Positions 15,260 through 53,304 of a DNA stretch of 64,000 nt are shown here, piece by piece. A model generated the notes under the pieces. It searched no databases. It saw nothing but the letters and a program-made list of their open reading frames with translations, and was not told the DNA's origin. The stretch is from Pleurocapsa minor GSE-CHR-MK 17-07R (GTDB taxonomy: Bacteria; Chloroflexota; Anaerolineae; Aggregatilineales; Phototrophicaceae): NCBI GenBank assembly GCA_019359125.1, contig JAHHHY010000001.1, positions 558,001-622,000 of the forward strand. Direction: 5' to 3'. The position numbers and the translations under genes are program-made. Numbering within the stretch: position 1 is the first letter of the stretch; every line of letters starts with the position of its first letter.

Positions 15260-15309
15260 CGCAGATAACAACCTCATATCTATCGGCTGTGATCGGGTAA
15301 AGTAGGCAT

Positions 15310-15535
15310 CGATCTGGTGTCAGAGAGTGTGGGCCATTGGCTGAAAGCCCACTCACACAGGCTGTGCTGAAAGTCCCCCGTGAGCCCTGCCTCAGAACTC
15401 ATAGTAAGAGGCAGCGGGTGCACCCGTTATCGTGCAGATGAGTGCCTCGGCAGTGTAACCTGCCGGGGAATCAAGGTGGTACCGCGAAGATCAGCCCTCT
15501 TTCGTCCTTGTTGATGAGAGAGGGCTGTTTGTTTT
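15310..15535 (+). ncRNA. T-box leader, valine (GUC) specifier, with terminator
   Basis: The conserved T-box core AAGGTGGTACCGCG is at 15473-15486. Stem I is recognisable: an AGAGAG element at 15322-15327 and a distal stem with the loop ATTGGCTGAAA. On the 3' side, the segment GAAAGTC-CCCCG-TGAGC aligns with the specifier region of known leaders (GAAA, codon, five bases, TGAGC), which makes GTC at 15373-15375 the specifier, a valine codon. The terminator stem is AGCCCTCT (15493-15500) with AGAGGGCT (15519-15526), then GTTTGTTTT. Uncharged tRNA-Val would stabilise the antiterminator and switch on the downstream genes. valS is the second gene, which supports the valine reading. Confidence 0.92.
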
Positions 15536-15553: not shown

Positions 15554-16369
15554 ATGCAGCGCCTGAATGACACCAACAGCTTCTACGACGCCATAGCTCA
15601 GTACTATCCGATGTTCTACAGAGACTACACGGTACAGATGGAGCGCGAGGGCCTCGGGCTGCGTTCTGTATTCCGAAATCGCGGCGTAGAACGGGTGCTG
15701 GATGCGTCCTGTGGGGCGGGTGCGCAGGCTATCCCTCTGGCAACCCTGGGCTACCGCGTGACCGCAGCCGACCCGAGCATGGGCATGTTGGCCAAAGCAC
15801 GTTCGATTGCTGCGAAAAACAATGTCAGCAGTGACAAGCTCAGCTTCGTGCAGGCATCATTTCAGACCCTGATGAACCACGTGAAGGGGCCGTTTGACGC
15901 CATCGTCACCAAAGGCAACTCCCTGCCCCACCTGCTGGAGGACAGCGAAATCGAGCTGGCTATCGCGACGTTTCATGAGCTGCTCAGGCCAGGCGGCACG
16001 CTCATCATCGGCATGCGTGATTTTGGCGCCTTCATGCAGGATCGTCCGCGCTTCATCCCCGGCCTGAATCATCAGGACGACGATGACAGCGAATTCATCA
16101 CCTTTGACCTGTGGGAATGGAACGACGGTCCGCCCGTCATCGCCACACAAAACCTGTACATCGTCAGCGGGAAAGACCCCGACTACACGACCCTCAGACG
16201 CCAGGTCGTTTACCGGCCGCTCTCGACCGACGAGGTAAAGGTAGTGCTGCTGGAAGCCGGCTTTGAAGAAGTTACCGATACGCCAGACCGCTCGGAACGC
16301 GTGCTGGTGGCCAAACGCTCAGATTCTGCAAAACGCTCGCCGCTGTGGGCGAAGCACACGGGAAGGTAA
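15554..16369 (+). CDS. Class I SAM-dependent methyltransferase in the valine T-box operon
   Basis: A 271-residue methyltransferase. SAM motif I is VLDASCGAGAQAIPLA, followed by the acidic VTAADPSMGMLAKA; motif IV reads FDAIVTKGNSLPHL and the post-I helix LLRPGGTLIIGMRD is intact. The substrate is unknown; the arrangement is like small-molecule methyltransferases (glycine/sarcosine type) but this is not enough to assign one. It is the first gene after the valine T-box terminator, and valS starts 12 bases after its stop, so its expression should follow valine limitation. Confidence 0.82.
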   Translation: MQRLNDTNSFYDAIAQYYPMFYRDYTVQMEREGLGLRSVFRNRGVERVLDASCGAGAQAIPLATLGYRVTAADPSMGMLAKARSIAAKNNVSSDKLSFVQASFQTLMNHVKGPFDAIVTKGNSLPHLLEDSEIELAIATFHELLRPGGTLIIGMRDFGAFMQDRPRFIPGLNHQDDDDSEFITFDLWEWNDGPPVIATQNLYIVSGKDPDYTTLRRQVVYRPLSTDEVKVVLLEAGFEEVTDTPDRSERVLVAKRSDSAKRSPLWAKHTGR

Positions 16370-16381
16370 AGAAGGTTCAAT

Positions 16382-18997
16382 ATGACGAAACAGATGCCCA
16401 AGAATTTCGACTTCGCAGAAGCCGAAGCCCGCATTTACGCCTGGTGGCAGGACAACGGCTGGTTCAAGCCTGAGTCCGCGCCAGCCGATGCCGAGCCGTT
16501 CGTGATCAGTATGCCGCCGCCGAACGTGACCGGGGCCCTGCACATCGGCCACGCGCTGTTCTCCACCCTGGAAGACCTGATGATTCGTTACGAACGCATG
16601 CGCGGAAAAGCCGCCCTGTGGGTGCCCGGCACCGACCATGCCGGCATAGCGACCCAGCTTCAGGTGGAAAAGCTGCTCCGCGATGAAGGCACCAGTCGCC
16701 AGGCCATCGGCCGTGATGCCTTCGTGAAACGCGTGTGGGAATGGAAAGACCTGTATGGCGGAACGATTATCCGCCAGCTGCGCCGACTCGGCGCAAGCTG
16801 CGACTGGGACCGCGAGCGCTTCACGATGGATGAAGGTCTGTCCAATGCCGTGCAGGACGTGTTCATCAGGCTGTACGAACAGGGCCTGATTTACCGTGGG
16901 CCGCGCCTGGTGAACTGGAGCCCCGGCTTGCAGACTGCCGTGTCGGACCTTGAGGTGGAGCGCGAGGAAGAAGACGGCAAGCTGTACCTGTTCCATTATC
17001 CGGTGGAAGGCGGCGGATCGCTGCCCGTGGCCACCACCCGTCCGGAGACGATCCTGGGCGACACTGCCGTGGCTGTGCATCCGGAGGACCCGCGCTATGC
17101 CGAATTCATCGGGCGCAAGGCGCTCGTGCCCATGCTCAACCGCGCCATCCCGATCATCGCCGATGAGTACGTCGACCGCGAGTTTGGCACCGGCGCGCTG
17201 AAAGTGACGCCTGGCCACGACTTTAACGACTATGAGCTGGCCCAGCGCCACAATCTGGCCATCATCAACATCATGAACAAAGACGCCACCATCAACACCA
17301 ACGGCGGCGACTATGCAGGCATGGACCGTTTCGCCTGCAGAGAGAAGCTGTGGGCGGACATGGCCGCAGCCGGCATGACCATCGAGGTGCGTCCGCACCG
17401 GATGGTGGTGCCCCGCAGCCAGCGCGGCGGAGAAGTGATCGAGCCGATGCTGAGCACGCAGTGGTACGTGAAGATTCAGCCGCTGGCTGAAAAAGCCATT
17501 GCCGCGGTGCGTGATGGCCGCATCATGATTGTGCCAGAACGCTTCGAGAAGATTTACTTCAACTGGCTGGAGAATATCCAGGACTGGTGCATCAGCCGCC
17601 AGCTCTGGTGGGGACATCGCATCCCCGTGTGGTACAGGGAAGACGGCAGTATGTTCGTCGGCCGGTCTGCGCCTGAGGGTGACGGCTGGACCGAAGGCGA
17701 AGACGTGCTCGATACCTGGTTCAGCAGCGGCCTGTGGCCTTTCAGCACACTGGGCTGGCCCGAGCAAACGGCTGACCTGGGCCGCTTCTATCCCACCCAC
17801 GTGATGGAAACCGGCTACGACATCCTGTTCTTCTGGGTGGCGCGCATGATTATGCTCGGCCTGTGGTTCACCGACGAAGCGCCGTTCAAAACGGTGTATC
17901 TGCATGGCCTGGTGCGCGACAAATTCGGCCGCAAGATCAGCAAGACGCTGGGCAACGTGATCGATCCGCTCATCCTGATCGACAAGTATGGCGCGGACCC
18001 GCTGCGCCTGGCGCTGGTCACCGGCAGCACGCCCGGCAACGATATCAATCTGGACGAGGCCCGTGTGGAGCGCAACTGGCGCTTCGTGAACAAAATCTGG
18101 CAGATGACCAATTTCGTCACCGCCGCGCTGGGCGATGCCCCGCTGACGGCAGTGCCCGCACGCGCGCAGCTTGACCTGCCCTCGCGCTGGATCATGAGCC
18201 GACTGAACAGGCTGGTGCAGTCGGTGCAGCGCACCTTCGACGCGCATCAGTATGGCGAGGCCGGCCGCCAGATTGACGACTTCATCTGGGGTGAATTTGC
18301 CGACTGGTATATCGAGATGAGCAAGCAGCCCCTGTATCAGGGCAGCGACGAAGAAAAGTCGGCCGCGCGCGCCGTGCTCGTGCACGTGCTGGAGACCTCG
18401 CTCAGGCTGATGCACCCGTACATGCCGTTCGTGACAGAAGAAGCGTGGAGCTATCTGCCCGGCGAAAACAAAACGCCACTGATTCGTTCGCAGTGGCCCA
18501 CCGCCGACGAGTCGTACTTCGATGATGAAGCCGAGCGCCAGATGACCACCCTGATCGAGCTGATCCGCGGCGTGCGCAACACACGGGAAGAATACAAAGT
18601 GGAGCCCTCGCGCAAGATCAGTGTGATCGCCACAGCGGGTGATGATTCTAGGGCGCTGCTGGGGCGTTATGGCTATCTGTTTGCGCGTCTGTGTAACGTG
18701 GGTGACCTGTCTGTGGATGCAGCGGCGCCGGAACAGGCCGCGTCGGTCATTTTCGGGGATATCACGCTGTCTTTGCCTTTGGCTGACTTCGTGGACGCGG
18801 CCGCAGAATGCGAACGCCTGGGCAAGGAACTGGAAAAGACCGAAGAAGCCGCCCGCCGCACCGAGACGATGCTGTCAAACGAACAGTTTATCAGCCGCGC
18901 ACGCCCCGATGTGGTCGAGCGTGAGCGCCAGAAGCTGGCTGACCTGACCGCCAGCAGCGAACAGCTCAGGGCGCGCATCGCCTCGCTTTGCGGGTGA
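16382..18997 (+). CDS. valS: Valine--tRNA ligase
   Basis: An 871-residue class I synthetase. The N-terminus MPPPNVTGALHIGHA holds the HIGH signature (residues 54-57); the editing domain includes VATTRPETILGDTAV; the KMSKS loop reads KISKT near residue 518 in RKISKTLGNVIDP. The C-terminal 70 residues form the ValS-specific coiled coil (ECERLGKELEKTEEAARR) that contacts tRNA. The length and order of domains are normal. It is controlled by the T-box leader upstream together with the methyltransferase gene. Confidence 0.97.
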   Translation: MTKQMPKNFDFAEAEARIYAWWQDNGWFKPESAPADAEPFVISMPPPNVTGALHIGHALFSTLEDLMIRYERMRGKAALWVPGTDHAGIATQLQVEKLLRDEGTSRQAIGRDAFVKRVWEWKDLYGGTIIRQLRRLGASCDWDRERFTMDEGLSNAVQDVFIRLYEQGLIYRGPRLVNWSPGLQTAVSDLEVEREEEDGKLYLFHYPVEGGGSLPVATTRPETILGDTAVAVHPEDPRYAEFIGRKALVPMLNRAIPIIADEYVDREFGTGALKVTPGHDFNDYELAQRHNLAIINIMNKDATINTNGGDYAGMDRFACREKLWADMAAAGMTIEVRPHRMVVPRSQRGGEVIEPMLSTQWYVKIQPLAEKAIAAVRDGRIMIVPERFEKIYFNWLENIQDWCISRQLWWGHRIPVWYREDGSMFVGRSAPEGDGWTEGEDVLDTWFSSGLWPFSTLGWPEQTADLGRFYPTHVMETGYDILFFWVARMIMLGLWFTDEAPFKTVYLHGLVRDKFGRKISKTLGNVIDPLILIDKYGADPLRLALVTGSTPGNDINLDEARVERNWRFVNKIWQMTNFVTAALGDAPLTAVPARAQLDLPSRWIMSRLNRLVQSVQRTFDAHQYGEAGRQIDDFIWGEFADWYIEMSKQPLYQGSDEEKSAARAVLVHVLETSLRLMHPYMPFVTEEAWSYLPGENKTPLIRSQWPTADESYFDDEAERQMTTLIELIRGVRNTREEYKVEPSRKISVIATAGDDSRALLGRYGYLFARLCNVGDLSVDAAAPEQAASVIFGDITLSLPLADFVDAAAECERLGKELEKTEEAARRTETMLSNEQFISRARPDVVERERQKLADLTASSEQLRARIASLCG

Positions 18998-48293: not shown

Positions 48294-49145
48294 CTATCTG
48301 TTGAAGGAGAGCAGCACGGGGTCCCCTACCGAGATGCCAAGCGCCTCGGCCGCGCTGCCCTGACGAACCGCAATTTCGAGAAACCCATCACTGCTGATTA
48401 GCGCCAGCGGCTGATGCAGTGGCGCTGACGCATACGAACGTTCGATGCGCGGCATCACATGTTTACGCACTTCCACCGTGGCACTGGCCGGAATCTCCAG
48501 GTGCCTGCCGCGGTCGACACCAAACGCCAGCGTGATCGACAGGCTGTCATTGGCAGCCCACTCCACCCGCCCGATGCTGGTAATCAGATTGCCAAAGCGA
48601 TCGATGTGAATCACCTCGCCAATCAGCGAATCTTTCTTCATGCTCATGGTCGGCTGCGACAGCCGCACCATGTCGTGCACTGCCGGCCCCATGTCGTGCA
48701 GGCGCGCATGGTGCGCCAGATGCGCCGCTGCCGGGGCAAAAATATCGCGCCCATGAAAGGTGTTGCTCACATGCGCCAGCCGATACTGTGAGTTTACCAG
48801 CACAACCGCAGTGTAGTTATCCATGTCAGACAGCATATAGCTCAGCACGCCGTTATCCGGTGCGACAAACGTATACTCCCCGGCCTGAACCGCCAGCGCC
48901 CGCCGTGCCGAGCCGACCCCGGGGTCGACCACCACCAGGAACACCGTGCCCGGCGGAAAATAGCGATAGGCATTGGCGAGCAGGAAGGCCCCTTCACGGA
49001 CATTCTGCGGCTGCACCGCGTGCGTCAGGTCAATCAGGCGGGCCGTCGGGCAGATGTCGAGCAGCACCCCTTTCATCACCCCAACATAGGTATCGCTCGT
49101 CCCGAAATCCGTTAGCAGGGCGATGACAGGCGCTGAAGCGGTCAT
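48294..49145 (-). CDS. SAM hydroxide adenosyltransferase (DUF62 family)
   Basis: A 283-residue protein of the DUF62 family. Characteristic segments are ALLTDFGTSDTYVGVMKGV, DLTHAVQPQNVREGAFLL and VVVDPGVGSARRALA, followed by FVAPDNGVLSYML; the Asp of the first segment and DPGVG belong to the SAM-binding site. Characterised members split S-adenosylmethionine into adenosine and methionine with water, and the fluorinase/chlorinase enzymes are relatives. The ATG at 49145 is preferred to an in-frame TTG at 49187, which would overlap the his promoter. It is co-transcribed with murA and divergent from the his operon. Confidence 0.88.
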   Translation of the reverse strand: MTASAPVIALLTDFGTSDTYVGVMKGVLLDICPTARLIDLTHAVQPQNVREGAFLLANAYRYFPPGTVFLVVVDPGVGSARRALAVQAGEYTFVAPDNGVLSYMLSDMDNYTAVVLVNSQYRLAHVSNTFHGRDIFAPAAAHLAHHARLHDMGPAVHDMVRLSQPTMSMKKDSLIGEVIHIDRFGNLITSIGRVEWAANDSLSITLAFGVDRGRHLEIPASATVEVRKHVMPRIERSYASAPLHQPLALISSDGFLEIAVRQGSAAEALGISVGDPVLLSFNR

Positions 49146-49166
49146 AGTGGCTGCACTTTCTCGTGT

Positions 49167-49195
49167 TTGACAACCGAATATACCCAAATTATACT
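49167..49195 (+). promoter_or_regulatory. Promoter of the his operon
   Basis: TTGACA (49167-49172), a 17-base spacer and TATACT (49190-49195) form the best promoter match in the window. Transcription would begin near 49202, leaving about 14 nt before the leader-peptide Shine-Dalgarno AGGGA (49216-49220). Confidence 0.85.
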
Positions 49196-49225
49196 ACGCA
49201 CCATTGTCAGCGTGCAGGGACCATC

Positions 49226-49294
49226 ATGATCGGCTTGCATCATGCGCATCAGCATATGTCTCCCGCCCCACAGGTGTACGCCTCTGGAAGCTGA
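49226..49294 (+). CDS. His-operon leader peptide (histidine-rich, 22 codons)
   Basis: A short frame starting at ATG 49226, five bases after AGGGA, begins MIGLHHAHQHMS and ends at TGA 49292-49294. Four of six consecutive codons (49238-49255) are His, in a region with no other explanation. It lies in the mRNA leader between the his promoter and a strong terminator ahead of hisH. By analogy with hisL of enteric bacteria, slow decoding of the His codons when charged tRNA-His is scarce would let transcription continue. The sequence is not related to HisL; only the arrangement is shared. It is too short to be found by size-based gene callers. Confidence 0.85.
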   Translation: MIGLHHAHQHMSPAPQVYASGS

Positions 49295-49358
49295 TGCAAC
49301 ACGCGAATTCGCTGCTCAGTCGATCCCCGTCCATCTGTGACGGGGATTTTTGTTTTTC
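49246..49358 (+). promoter_or_regulatory. Transcription attenuator of the his operon
   Basis: Within the leader, GCATCAGC (49246-49253, inside the His codons) is perfectly complementary to GCTGATGC (49290-49297, over the leader stop codon), an 8-bp 1:2 pairing that a ribosome stalled at His would disrupt. The freed CTGA-T-GCA (49291-49298) can pair instead with TGCTCAG (49313-49319), next to the terminator. The terminator is ATCCCCGTC (49323-49331) with GACGGGGAT (49339-49347), followed by TTTTTGTTTTT. The alternative pairing does not overlap the terminator arm, so the exact antiterminator is unresolved. Confidence 0.75.
49323..49358 (+). terminator. Attenuator terminator ahead of hisH
   Basis: A perfect 9-bp GC-rich stem with a 7-nt loop and a ten-base T-rich tail, ending 26 bases before the hisH ATG. 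Its place inside the leader, not at a gene end, marks it as an attenuator. Confidence 0.92.
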
Positions 49359-49383
49359 TCTCAGGAAGGCGGTGCAATTTCTC

Positions 49384-49998
49384 ATGCTCGCAGTCATCGA
49401 TTACGGCGCAGGCAATCTGCGCAGTGTGCTGCATGCCCTCGGCCACCTGGGCGCAGAAAACCTGCGTCTGGTGCGCACCCCCCACGAAATGAAAGGGGCG
49501 ACGAAAGTTATCCTGCCCGGCGTCGGGGCGTTTGGCGCCGGCATGCAGCAGCTTCATGCGCAGGATCTGGTGGGCGCGCTGCGCGATGCCGTACATATTG
49601 GTATCCCTTTCCTGGGCATCTGTCTTGGCATGCAGTTCCTGTTTGAATACAGCGATGAAATGGGACAGCACGAAGGGCTTGGCCTGCTGAAAGGCCACGT
49701 CACGCGCTTCACTGGCATCGAGCCGCTGAAGGTGCCGCACATGGGCTGGAACCAGCTGGTGACCACCCGTCCCAGCCCGCTGCTGGCGGGCCTGCCGGAC
49801 GACGCGTATGCCTATTTCGTGCACAGCTACTACTGCGTGCCGTCGCAGCCCGAAGACGTGCTGGTCACCTGCGACTATGGCTTCCCATTCACAGCCGGGG
49901 TGCAGCGCGACAATATCTATGGCGTGCAGTTTCACCCTGAAAAGAGCCAGCGCACCGGCCTGCAAATCCTGAAGAATTTCCTGGAGATGCCAGAATGA
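49384..49998 (+). CDS. hisH: Imidazole glycerol phosphate synthase, glutaminase subunit HisH
   Basis: A 204-residue class I glutamine amidotransferase. It opens AVIDYGAGNLRSVLHAL, has the nucleophile loop FLGICLGMQFLFE (Cys of GICLG), and the His-Glu pair in GVQFHPEKSQ. HisH makes ammonia from glutamine and passes it through the HisF barrel. The ATG at 49384 fits the family N-terminus; an in-frame GTG at 49372 is a possible alternative closer to AGGAAGG. It is the first structural gene after the attenuator and overlaps hisA by four bases. Confidence 0.95.
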   Translation: MLAVIDYGAGNLRSVLHALGHLGAENLRLVRTPHEMKGATKVILPGVGAFGAGMQQLHAQDLVGALRDAVHIGIPFLGICLGMQFLFEYSDEMGQHEGLGLLKGHVTRFTGIEPLKVPHMGWNQLVTTRPSPLLAGLPDDAYAYFVHSYYCVPSQPEDVLVTCDYGFPFTAGVQRDNIYGVQFHPEKSQRTGLQILKNFLEMPE

Positions 49999-50717
49999 TC
50001 ATTTTCCCTGCTATTGACCTGCGCGGCGGCAAAGTCGTGCGCCTGAGAGAGGGCGATCCAGATCGCCAGAAAACCTTCAGCGATGACCCGGTAGCTGCCG
50101 CACAGCGCTGGATTGACGAAGGCGCGCAGTGGATTCACGTCGTCAATCTGGACGGCGCGTTTGGCGAGGCCAGCGACAACCTGAGCGTGATTGAACGCAT
50201 CGCCGGTCTGTCGGCACGGGTGCAGATGGGTGGCGGCCTGCGCGATGCGGCCAGCGTCGCCCACGTGCTTGACCTGGGCGTCTCACGCGCCATTATCGGC
50301 ACAGCGGCCGTGCAGAATCCAGCGATGCTGGGCCCGCTGGTGACACGTTTTGGCGTGCAGGCCATCGGCGTGGCGCTGGATATCCGCAAAGGCAGCGTGA
50401 CCACCCACGGCTGGCAGCAAAGCACCGGCCAATCCCCGGTTGCTATGGCCGAGACGATGCGTCAGCAGGGCGTGCAGTGGGTCCTGTTCACCGATGTCGA
50501 ACGCGACGGTGGACTGCAAGGCTCCAACGTCGAATCCACCATCGGGCTGGGCCGGGCCACTGGCATGAAAATTATCGCGTCGGGCGGCGTGACCACGCTG
50601 GACGAGATTGAAACCCTGGCCGCTTCAGGCGCAGTTGCCGGGGCTGTCATTGGCATGGCGCTGTACGAAAATCGTCTCTCGCTGGCAGACTGCATTAGCG
50701 CAGCACGAAAGGGTTAA
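49995..50717 (+). CDS. hisA: ProFAR isomerase HisA
   Basis: A 240-residue TIM barrel. [18 protein letters not shown] is the N-terminal hallmark with the first catalytic Asp; [11 protein letters not shown] and [12 protein letters not shown] are the two phosphate-binding loops, and the second catalytic Asp is in [10 protein letters not shown]. HisA opens the ribose of ProFAR by an Amadori rearrangement to PRFAR. In some lineages one enzyme (PriA) also does the TrpF step; this cannot be excluded from sequence alone. It overlaps hisH (ATGA) and is followed by hisF after four bases. Confidence 0.94.
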
Positions 50718-50721
50718 CCTC

Positions 50722-51495
50722 ATGCTGGCCAAACGCGTTATCCCCTGCCTTGACGTGCTCAACGGGCGCGTCGTCAAAGGCGTCAATTTTATCGACCTGC
50801 GCGATGCGGGTGATCCGGTGGAACAGGCCATCGTGTATGACCGCGAAGGTGCCGATGAGCTGGTGTTTCTCGACATCACCGCCTCACATGAGGAACGCAA
50901 CACCACGCTGGACATGGTGCGCCACGTCGCCGACAGCATCTTTATCCCCTTCTGCGTGGGCGGCGGCATCCGCACCATTGAGGATATCCGCGCCACGCTG
51001 CTGGCCGGGGCCGACAAGGTGAGCATCAACAGTTCAGCGGTCAAAACGCCGGACCTGATTAATCAGGGTGCCTGGGGCTTCGGCAGCCAGTGTATCGTCG
51101 TCGCCATCGACCCGAAATGGACAGGCGAACGCTGGGAAGTTTTCATCAATGGCGGTCGCGTGAACACGGGTCTGGATGCTGTCGCGTGGGCAAAAGAGGT
51201 AGAGTCACGCGGCGCGGGCGAAATTCTGCTGACCAGCATGGACCGCGACGGCACCAAAGCTGGCTACAACATCCCGCTCACGAAGGCGATTTCCGAGGCT
51301 GTGTCGATTCCTGTGATCGCATCGGGCGGAGCCGGCAAGCCGGAACATTTCTACGAGGCGCTGACCACAGGCGGCGCCGATGCTGCGCTGGCCGCCAGCC
51401 TGTTTCACTACAATGAATTGCGCGTCGGCGACCTGAAGCGCTATCTGGATGAGCGCGGCGTGGATGTGCGCCTGACCGGATGGGAGCGCCTGTGA
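50722..51495 (+). CDS. hisF: Imidazole glycerol phosphate synthase, cyclase subunit HisF
   Basis: A 257-residue TIM barrel. It starts [19 protein letters not shown], where the Asp is catalytic; [12 protein letters not shown] and [11 protein letters not shown] are the phosphate loops, and the second catalytic Asp is in [12 protein letters not shown]. It joins PRFAR with ammonia from HisH to form IGP and AICAR; the AICAR can return to purine synthesis through PurH, also in this window. ATG 50722 has GAAAGGG upstream; the open frame before it overlaps hisA and is not used. Confidence 0.96.
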
Positions 51496-51833
51496 ACGCC
51501 GAGTTATTGCAACAGCTCAAATTTGGCGCAGACGGCCTGATTACGGCCGTCGTGCAGGATGCAGCGACGCTTCAGGTGCTGACAGTCGCCTACATGAATG
51601 CCGAATCGCTGCGCAAAACACTGGAGATTGGTGAGACCGTCTTCTGGAGCCGCAGTCGTCAGGAGCTGTGGCATAAAGGGGAAACCAGCGGCAACACCCA
51701 GCGCGTCGTCGAGATCCGCGTGGACTGCGATGCGGACGCGCTGCTGCTGCTGGTAGCACCCGCCGGGCCGGCCTGCCACACCGGCGCAGTTTCTTGTTTC
51801 TTTCGCAGCCTCACTCAGGAGCAAGGCGCATGA
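51492..51833 (+). CDS. hisI: Phosphoribosyl-AMP cyclohydrolase HisI
   Basis: A 113-residue single-domain cyclohydrolase. The conserved segments are [35 protein letters not shown] and the zinc site [10 protein letters not shown] with [13 protein letters not shown]. It opens the adenine ring of PR-AMP. The start is GTG 51492, which overlaps the hisF stop (GTGA) and has GGGAG five bases before it. Separate hisI and hisE genes, as here, are found in many bacteria; enteric bacteria have them fused. Confidence 0.94.
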
Positions 51834-52117
51834 CCGACTTCCTTTATCGGCTGGAAGCCATCATTCAGGATCGCAAACAGAATCCCACTGGCAGCAGCTA
51901 TACCAACAAGCTGCTCAGTGAAGGCATGGCGCGCATGGCGCAAAAAGTGGGCGAAGAAGGCGTGGAAGTCGCCATCGCTGCTCTGGCCCAGGGGCGGACC
52001 GAACAGATCGGTGAAATCAGCGACCTGATGTATCACACGCTGGTGATGATGGCGGCGCTGGATATCACGCTCGACGACGTGTCGGCCGAGCTGGAACGCC
52101 GCCATTCGAAGCGTTAG
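51830..52117 (+). CDS. hisE: Phosphoribosyl-ATP diphosphatase HisE
   Basis: A 95-residue all-helical protein of the MazG-like fold. [20 protein letters not shown] and [10 protein letters not shown] with the acidic residues for magnesium, then [14 protein letters not shown], match HisE. It removes pyrophosphate from PR-ATP, the second step of histidine synthesis. The ATG at 51830 overlaps the hisI stop; an upstream in-frame ATG at 51794 lies inside hisI. It ends the operon; hisG, hisD, hisC and hisB are not in the window. The stop shares TTAG with the convergent TIR gene. Confidence 0.93.
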
Positions 52118-53304
52118 CCGGGCAGCACCGGGATGAGATAGTAGTCATCCGGCAGGGCGCCCTCGGCCGCCCACCCGCGCACGAATCCGTCGGCTGTTTC
52201 GATGAACCACCACAGGAATTGATTGCGGCACACAGGCGTCCCTTTGATGAAGATGGCGCTGTTCTCACGGATCTGGGCAATCACCAGCCCGGCCGGCTCG
52301 TTGCGGATATTCATGTCCAGCATGCTCTGGTCCGGGCTGGGCGCGATGACAGCCGCCATGCCATTATTCAGGCGGCTGACCGGCGCACCCGGACAGGCGA
52401 TACTCACCGGCGTGAGCGACGGAATCGGCGTCGGCGTCTGAGTCGCATTCTCCGTGGGCAGAATCGTCCCCAGCGCGATGGCGGTGGCCGTGGCCGCGCC
52501 AGACGTGCGCGTTGCGCGCAGGGTGTTCAGGCGATTCGGCGTCGGCGTCGGTGTGAAGGATTCCGCCGTCTCCGTCAACACGGCTGCGGTCGCGTTAATG
52601 GCATCGAAGGTGGGCGCAAATTCAGTCAGCGCCAGTTCGGTCTCAGCCAGGAAGATGGCCATTTGCTCGGTCGATGTCAGATCGGCATCCCCCACAAACG
52701 GGCGCGGCGTGCGCGTGCTGGTTGGGCCGCTGGCGACCCGCGTCTGTGTTTGTTGGAGGCCAGTCAGCGTCCCTGGCTGTGAGGCCAGAAGCAGCAGCAG
52801 CACGACCAGCGCGATGATGACCAGCCCGCCCCCAATCAGCCATGGCAGCGTGATTTGCTGGCGCAGGCGCTCCATCGAGGTAATGGCGACAGGCTGTTTC
52901 GGCGAAGGCTTGTCCAGCATGATCGATTTCAGTGCAAACTGATGCACCAGGTCGGCCAGCGCCTCATCAAACGGCCGGTTGTCGAATCGAATGTACTGCA
53001 CGCGGCTGAGCTGGAAATGTATTTTGGTCTGCTGCAGCAGAATCGGAATGAGCGGCTTTTTGTTGTCGAGGATATACTGCCATTCATCTTCCACATTGTG
53101 CGATGCCATCGATGTGGGCGTGATGATGACGATGCCCGCATCGCACACATCCAGCCCTTGCTGAATGGCGGTGCTCCATTTCATGCCAGCGGGGATATCA
53201 TCTACGTCGATCCATACGTCGGCCCCAAGGTCTGACAGGGATTTCGCAAGCTGACGAGCAAATTTCTCGTCTTTTCGGCTGTAACTGATGAAGATATTCG
53301 CCAT
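52114..53304 (-). CDS. TIR-domain, single-pass membrane protein with external SH3-like domain
   Basis: A 396-residue protein. Residues 1-135 are a TIR domain: NIFISYSRKDEKFARQLAKS, WIDVDDIPAGMKW and VEDEWQYILDNKKPLIPILL, with Glu74 in the place of the catalytic Glu of NAD-cleaving TIR domains. One transmembrane helix lies at about 158-181 (LIGGGLVIIALVVLLLLLAS). Outside is a long Thr/Ala-rich linker and a C-terminal SH3b-like domain (about 305-390) with two Cys. The topology is that of a receptor whose outside part could sense cell wall and whose inside part could degrade NAD or form a scaffold. It stands alone, convergent with hisE. Confidence 0.85.
   Translation of the reverse strand: MANIFISYSRKDEKFARQLAKSLSDLGADVWIDVDDIPAGMKWSTAIQQGLDVCDAGIVIITPTSMASHNVEDEWQYILDNKKPLIPILLQQTKIHFQLSRVQYIRFDNRPFDEALADLVHQFALKSIMLDKPSPKQPVAITSMERLRQQITLPWLIGGGLVIIALVVLLLLLASQPGTLTGLQQTQTRVASGPTSTRTPRPFVGDADLTSTEQMAIFLAETELALTEFAPTFDAINATAAVLTETAESFTPTPTPNRLNTLRATRTSGAATATAIALGTILPTENATQTPTPIPSLTPVSIACPGAPVSRLNNGMAAVIAPSPDQSMLDMNIRNEPAGLVIAQIRENSAIFIKGTPVCRNQFLWWFIETADGFVRGWAAEGALPDDYYLIPVLPG

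Follow-up and report, generated by a model that had tools for sequence, protein, structure and literature searches.

The DNA upstream of hisH in this Chloroflexota genome raises the question of whether a histidine operon is controlled here by translation of a short, His-rich leader frame lying ahead of a transcription terminator. The locus was studied within a 64-kb stretch of DNA (the window) from a source genome of 4.85 Mb that is 98% complete. In the window, hisH (49384-49998, + strand; TIGR01855, 236.5 bits) is the first gene of the operon in question and is followed, on the same strand, by hisA (49995-50717; TIGR00007), hisF (50722-51495; TIGR00735), hisI (51480-51833; PRA-CH), and hisE (51833-52117; PRA-PH/TIGR03188). 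The operon is partial, as the preliminary description of this DNA had said in noting that hisG and hisD are missing from it, since hisZG and hisD are located at other sites and there is no hisB; a search for an attenuator leader before hisZG and hisD in five genomes found none. (Convergent with hisE, on the minus strand at 52114-53304, is a frame that starts MANIFISYSRKDEKFARQL and has, by eye, a TIR-like start.)

The individual parts of the leader, all on the + strand, can be read directly, and the promoter, the AGGGA sequence, the leader frame, and the His codons are present just where they had been described. A σ70-type promoter, TTGACA-17-TATACT (49167-49195), matches the consensus at 11 of 12 positions. 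Downstream of it, a Shine-Dalgarno-like AGGGA (49216-49220) serves the leader frame MIGLHHAHQHMSPAPQVYASGS, which runs from the ATG at 49226 to the TGA at 49292-49294 (49226-49294 including the stop) and ends 89 nt before the hisH start. Its putative translation places four His codons within six ahead of hisHAFIE; these regulatory codons, CAT CAT GCG CAT CAG CAT, occupy 49238-49255 (segment 1). The terminator, previously credited with 9 bp and a T tail, is an intrinsic hairpin at 49322-49348, counted here as 10 pairs and also recognised in relatives, with a T-rich tail that extends to about 49358. A His-rich short frame followed by a terminator occurs only this once in the 64-kb window.

Whether this arrangement is more than a coincidence was examined in the family of the source genome (labelled f1), which comprises 98 genomes in 24 genera, the largest being g36. 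HisH is present in 89 of the 98. (An in-frame TAG in the HisH matches of one genus proved, in the copies looked at, to be the gene's normal stop.) An automatic detector that calls for at least 3 His in 8 residues, a frame of 8-35 codons, and a hairpin with a T run is positive upstream of hisH in 73/88 family regions. The same detector is positive in 1/84 regions ahead of hisH taken from different families and phyla and in 0/84 from families elsewhere in the class and order; outside the family, across its sister families, further families of the class, and different phyla, the total is 1/168. When the regions are read by eye, with at least two His being accepted, the layout precedes hisH in 84 of the 87 readable family genomes; by the same inspection, the 15 detector-negative regions comprise 11 in which leader and terminator can still be recognised in weaker form, 1 that is masked, and 3 in which the layout is lost. 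(In L040, L042, and L083 the leader's His codons, or most of the leader, are gone, with the terminator retained in L040; regulation has possibly been lost in these three.)

Nearly all family leaders also have a promoter-like TTGAC-N18-21-TAnnnT at a similar distance, and nearly all relatives have a GC-rich hairpin and T run at the equivalent position. The preliminary description had made its reading depend on conservation of the His codons in related genomes, and a His-rich leader with its terminator is indeed found family-wide. The putative attenuator apparently arose within one Chloroflexota family. That leader, hairpin, and promoter are instead a chance combination is scarcely credible: the fold of the whole leader is admittedly no better than that of shuffled sequences (z -0.94, a value that is uninformative alone), but the detector is positive in 0/1760 order-1 Markov resamples of the family hisH upstream regions, the layout is conserved over some 20 genera, and it contains pairings that covary, as described below. 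A second alternative holds that the terminator is run by a trans-acting factor, or by a T-box-like or other RNA sensor, and that the His codons are incidental. A T-box is in fact present in the same window, at 15280-15512. (This T-box leader, at 126 bits, lies before a methyltransferase-like frame at 15554 and a valyl-tRNA-synthetase-like frame at 16382, both named by eye.) However, the leader upstream of hisH matches no Rfam family at cut-off, and its His cluster persists in relatives, as HHH, HHHH, or HxHxH, while the rest of the peptide varies; such a mechanism is considered highly improbable.

For a ribosome on the His codons to affect the terminator, as attenuation would have it, an alternative RNA structure is needed, and the main one was missed in the preliminary description. 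It had proposed a possible alternative pairing between 49291-49298 and 49313-49319; this pairing is only the base of a longer antiterminator, 49269-49298/49313-49339. The 5' strand of this antiterminator (segment 2, 49269-49298) consists of the C-terminal codons of the leader, its stop, and the next bases, and the 3' strand (segment 3, 49313-49339) spans the 5' arm and loop of the terminator. In the window, the segment 2/segment 3 duplex has an energy of -24.4 kcal/mol (z -3.7, p 0.01), and the stretch 49262-49340 folds as the antiterminator at -26.5 kcal/mol, with 3/200 shuffles as good.

Comparison across species indicates that these two strands have changed together. Many relatives have leaders whose last codons resemble CCGGTGTTGG and pair with CCCCGCACCG; in g36 the pairing is between AGAGCGA and TCGCTCT, and a subgroup of that genus has AGGAGCGA pairing with TCGCTCCT. 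Swapping partners between species weakens the segment 2/3 pairing, such that the cognate value is reached in 0/5000 permutations overall, in 0/5000 outside g36, and in 9/5000 inside g36. Because relatedness affects swap tests of this type, a version using one genome per genus (20 genera) was added, and it gives a median p of 0.005. In the A3 columns, 83.5% of the cells are paired and 12 double changes are seen versus 5.8 expected (1/500 shuffles); in the A2 columns, 75% are paired versus 71% expected (0/500 shuffles). (In one relative, L080, at 2883-2978, a TAG codon follows the conserved AGAGCG, and what is conserved in this leader seems to be the RNA rather than the peptide, because the TAG shortens the peptide and yet the RNA pairing segment stays.)

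Covariation had been put forward earlier as a check on all of the helices, and it is seen for the antiterminator. The preliminary description had emphasised an 8-bp pairing between the His codons and the RNA over the leader stop. The segment GCATCAGC (49246-49253) is in fact the exact complement of GCTGATGC at 49290-49297, which makes it a candidate helix 1:2, but the pairing is no better than in shuffled sequence (z -1.0). Many relatives have His codons (CACCATC) that can pair with segment 2 (GGTGTTGG); across relatives, this helix has a mean z of -0.79 versus shuffles, with 14/85 below 0.05. As a key element the 8-bp helix was dropped, since it is not above shuffles and is differently placed in relatives; helix 1:2 may play a part in the switch, by competing with the antiterminator when no ribosome stalls. 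The terminator stem shows no compensatory changes within g36, though the hairpin is conserved. The U of a common U-G pair in this stem is the base that pairs with an A in the antiterminator, and the wobble may be kept owing to that second pairing.

Folding with the ribosome held at defined positions, and with a footprint assumed to cover 13 nt downstream of the codon in the A site, predicts a switch. Among the family leaders, the mean terminator probability at equilibrium is 0.49 when the A site is on the second His codon, 0.83 when there is no ribosome, and 0.95 when the ribosome is at the stop codon, a position in which segment 3 is free of the leader by construction of the test. When the stretch upstream of the terminator is shuffled, the terminator probability in the stalled state rises from 0.49 to 0.89 (Wilcoxon p 1e-9). 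In addition, before the 3' arm of the terminator has been made, segment 3 is held with a probability of 0.92, versus 0.48 in shuffles (p 2e-15). The window leader has a stalled-state terminator probability of 0.64 versus 1.00 when shuffled, and its segment 3 is held before the 3' arm with a probability of 0.999 versus 0.39. In the window leader the terminator is still favoured at equilibrium in the stalled state (0.64), which means that a switch would have to depend on the sequence in which the parts are transcribed.

Taken together, these computations make it very probable that hisHAFIE is controlled by a ribosome-mediated transcription attenuator, which would work as follows. Transcription would begin just past 49195, with a ribosome following the polymerase and translating the His-rich leader. 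A shortage of charged His-tRNA would stall this ribosome on the codons at 49238-49255, leaving segment 2 free to pair with segment 3 before the 3' arm of the terminator exists; with the antiterminator formed, there would be no terminator and the operon would be read. Given ample His-tRNA, the ribosome would instead reach the stop at 49292 and cover segment 2, segment 3 would then be free, and the terminator at 49322-49348 would form and end transcription. Histidine is the presumed signal, and the attenuator implies that transcription and translation would be coupled closely enough for the leader ribosome to steer termination. Alternatively, translation of the leader could expose or hide the ribosome site of hisH (translational attenuation) or help ribosomes to re-initiate at hisH, the terminator then having little weight. 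Some known His attenuators do target a ribosome site (PMC9413887), and there is an earlier proposal of re-initiation from leader genes (PMC4833913). Yet a hairpin with an immediate T run is found in nearly all relatives, the alternative helices do not include the ribosome site of hisH, and the leader stop falls well short of the hisH start by the distance given above, all of which leave control at the level of hisH translation very unlikely.

If transcription attenuation operates as predicted, what pathway does it serve? The classical IGP dehydratase hisB (PF00475) is found in 33/98 family genomes, all of them in g36, and it is absent from 23 of the 24 family genera although hisHAFIE is kept. 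Of the 63 genomes that reach 90% completeness with no more than 5% contamination, 34 have no PF00475; hisZG and hisD were found where they were sought. In several sister families, hisB is directly before hisH. Directly downstream of hisD in the source genome (G000) is a gene encoding an APH-fold protein (L103:2709-3944, + strand; G000:C22:471499-472734; PF01636, 3e-7), for which no NCBIfam or PDB match was found. The gene is immediately 3' of hisD in 7/7 genomes that have both in the fetched stretch, and the kinase-like motifs GHGDAHNGN and YFDPAFAG are invariant in nine APH-fold sequences. It is present in 52/98 family genomes, none of which has PF00475. In the order-wide sample, genomes of f4 and f7 carry it, likewise without PF00475; it is found in 0/10 genomes of f2, f3, f6, and f8, all of which have PF00475; and 4/41 genomes have neither. 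In the class sample, it occurs in five genomes only, all belonging to the source family or to f4.

This mutual exclusion is consistent with replacement of hisB, with the APH-fold gene as the candidate, and shared descent may explain part of the pattern, since the APH-fold gene may have been acquired a single time and dropped in g36. The attenuator would mark hisHAFIE as histidine-responsive in genomes that have no classical hisB, which argues that these genomes make histidine via another dehydratase. We put forward, as a tentative view that is rather less than probable as a whole, that His attenuation arose independently in one Chloroflexota family, in front of hisH, where sister families keep hisB, and that it controls a pathway whose IGP dehydratase, missing in those 23 of 24 genera, was replaced by another enzyme, the leading candidate being the hisD-adjacent APH-fold gene.

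The type of control is a known one that is absent from Rfam in this form and for which no earlier report was found in Chloroflexota. The enteric his attenuator (RF00514) has no match in the window at the gathering score, nor in 49100-49500 at E up to 10, and the T-box family (RF00230) has none at the leader. No description of attenuators in Chloroflexi, Chloroflexota, or Anaerolineae was found in the open-access literature, an absence that is weak evidence; five Chloroflexi genomes were among those covered by a survey from 2013, which proposed that gamma-proteobacteria may be where such motifs originated (PMC3766115). A T-box leader shares with the present one an amino-acid-responsive control of termination, but it senses uncharged tRNA directly. 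Also comparable are the His-leader attenuators predicted in Firmicutes, in the B. cereus group, Peptostreptococcaceae, and Erysipelotrichales (PMC9413887), in which a short frame likewise contains three to five His codons and is followed by alternative hairpins that end in a terminator, although they belong to another phylum and to operons of another order. The enteric system has in common with this one a leader with His codons, a competing antiterminator, an intrinsic terminator, and the histidine synthesis genes that follow. To this extent the enteric hisL layout ascribed to the locus in the preliminary description stands, as does the statement that the peptide is unlike HisL beyond its His codons. 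The layout here is, however, simpler: the strand that blocks the terminator lies mainly within the C-terminal codons of the leader frame itself, and the leader precedes hisH rather than hisG. A family-wide, covarying His attenuator in Chloroflexota suggests that such control evolves repeatedly.
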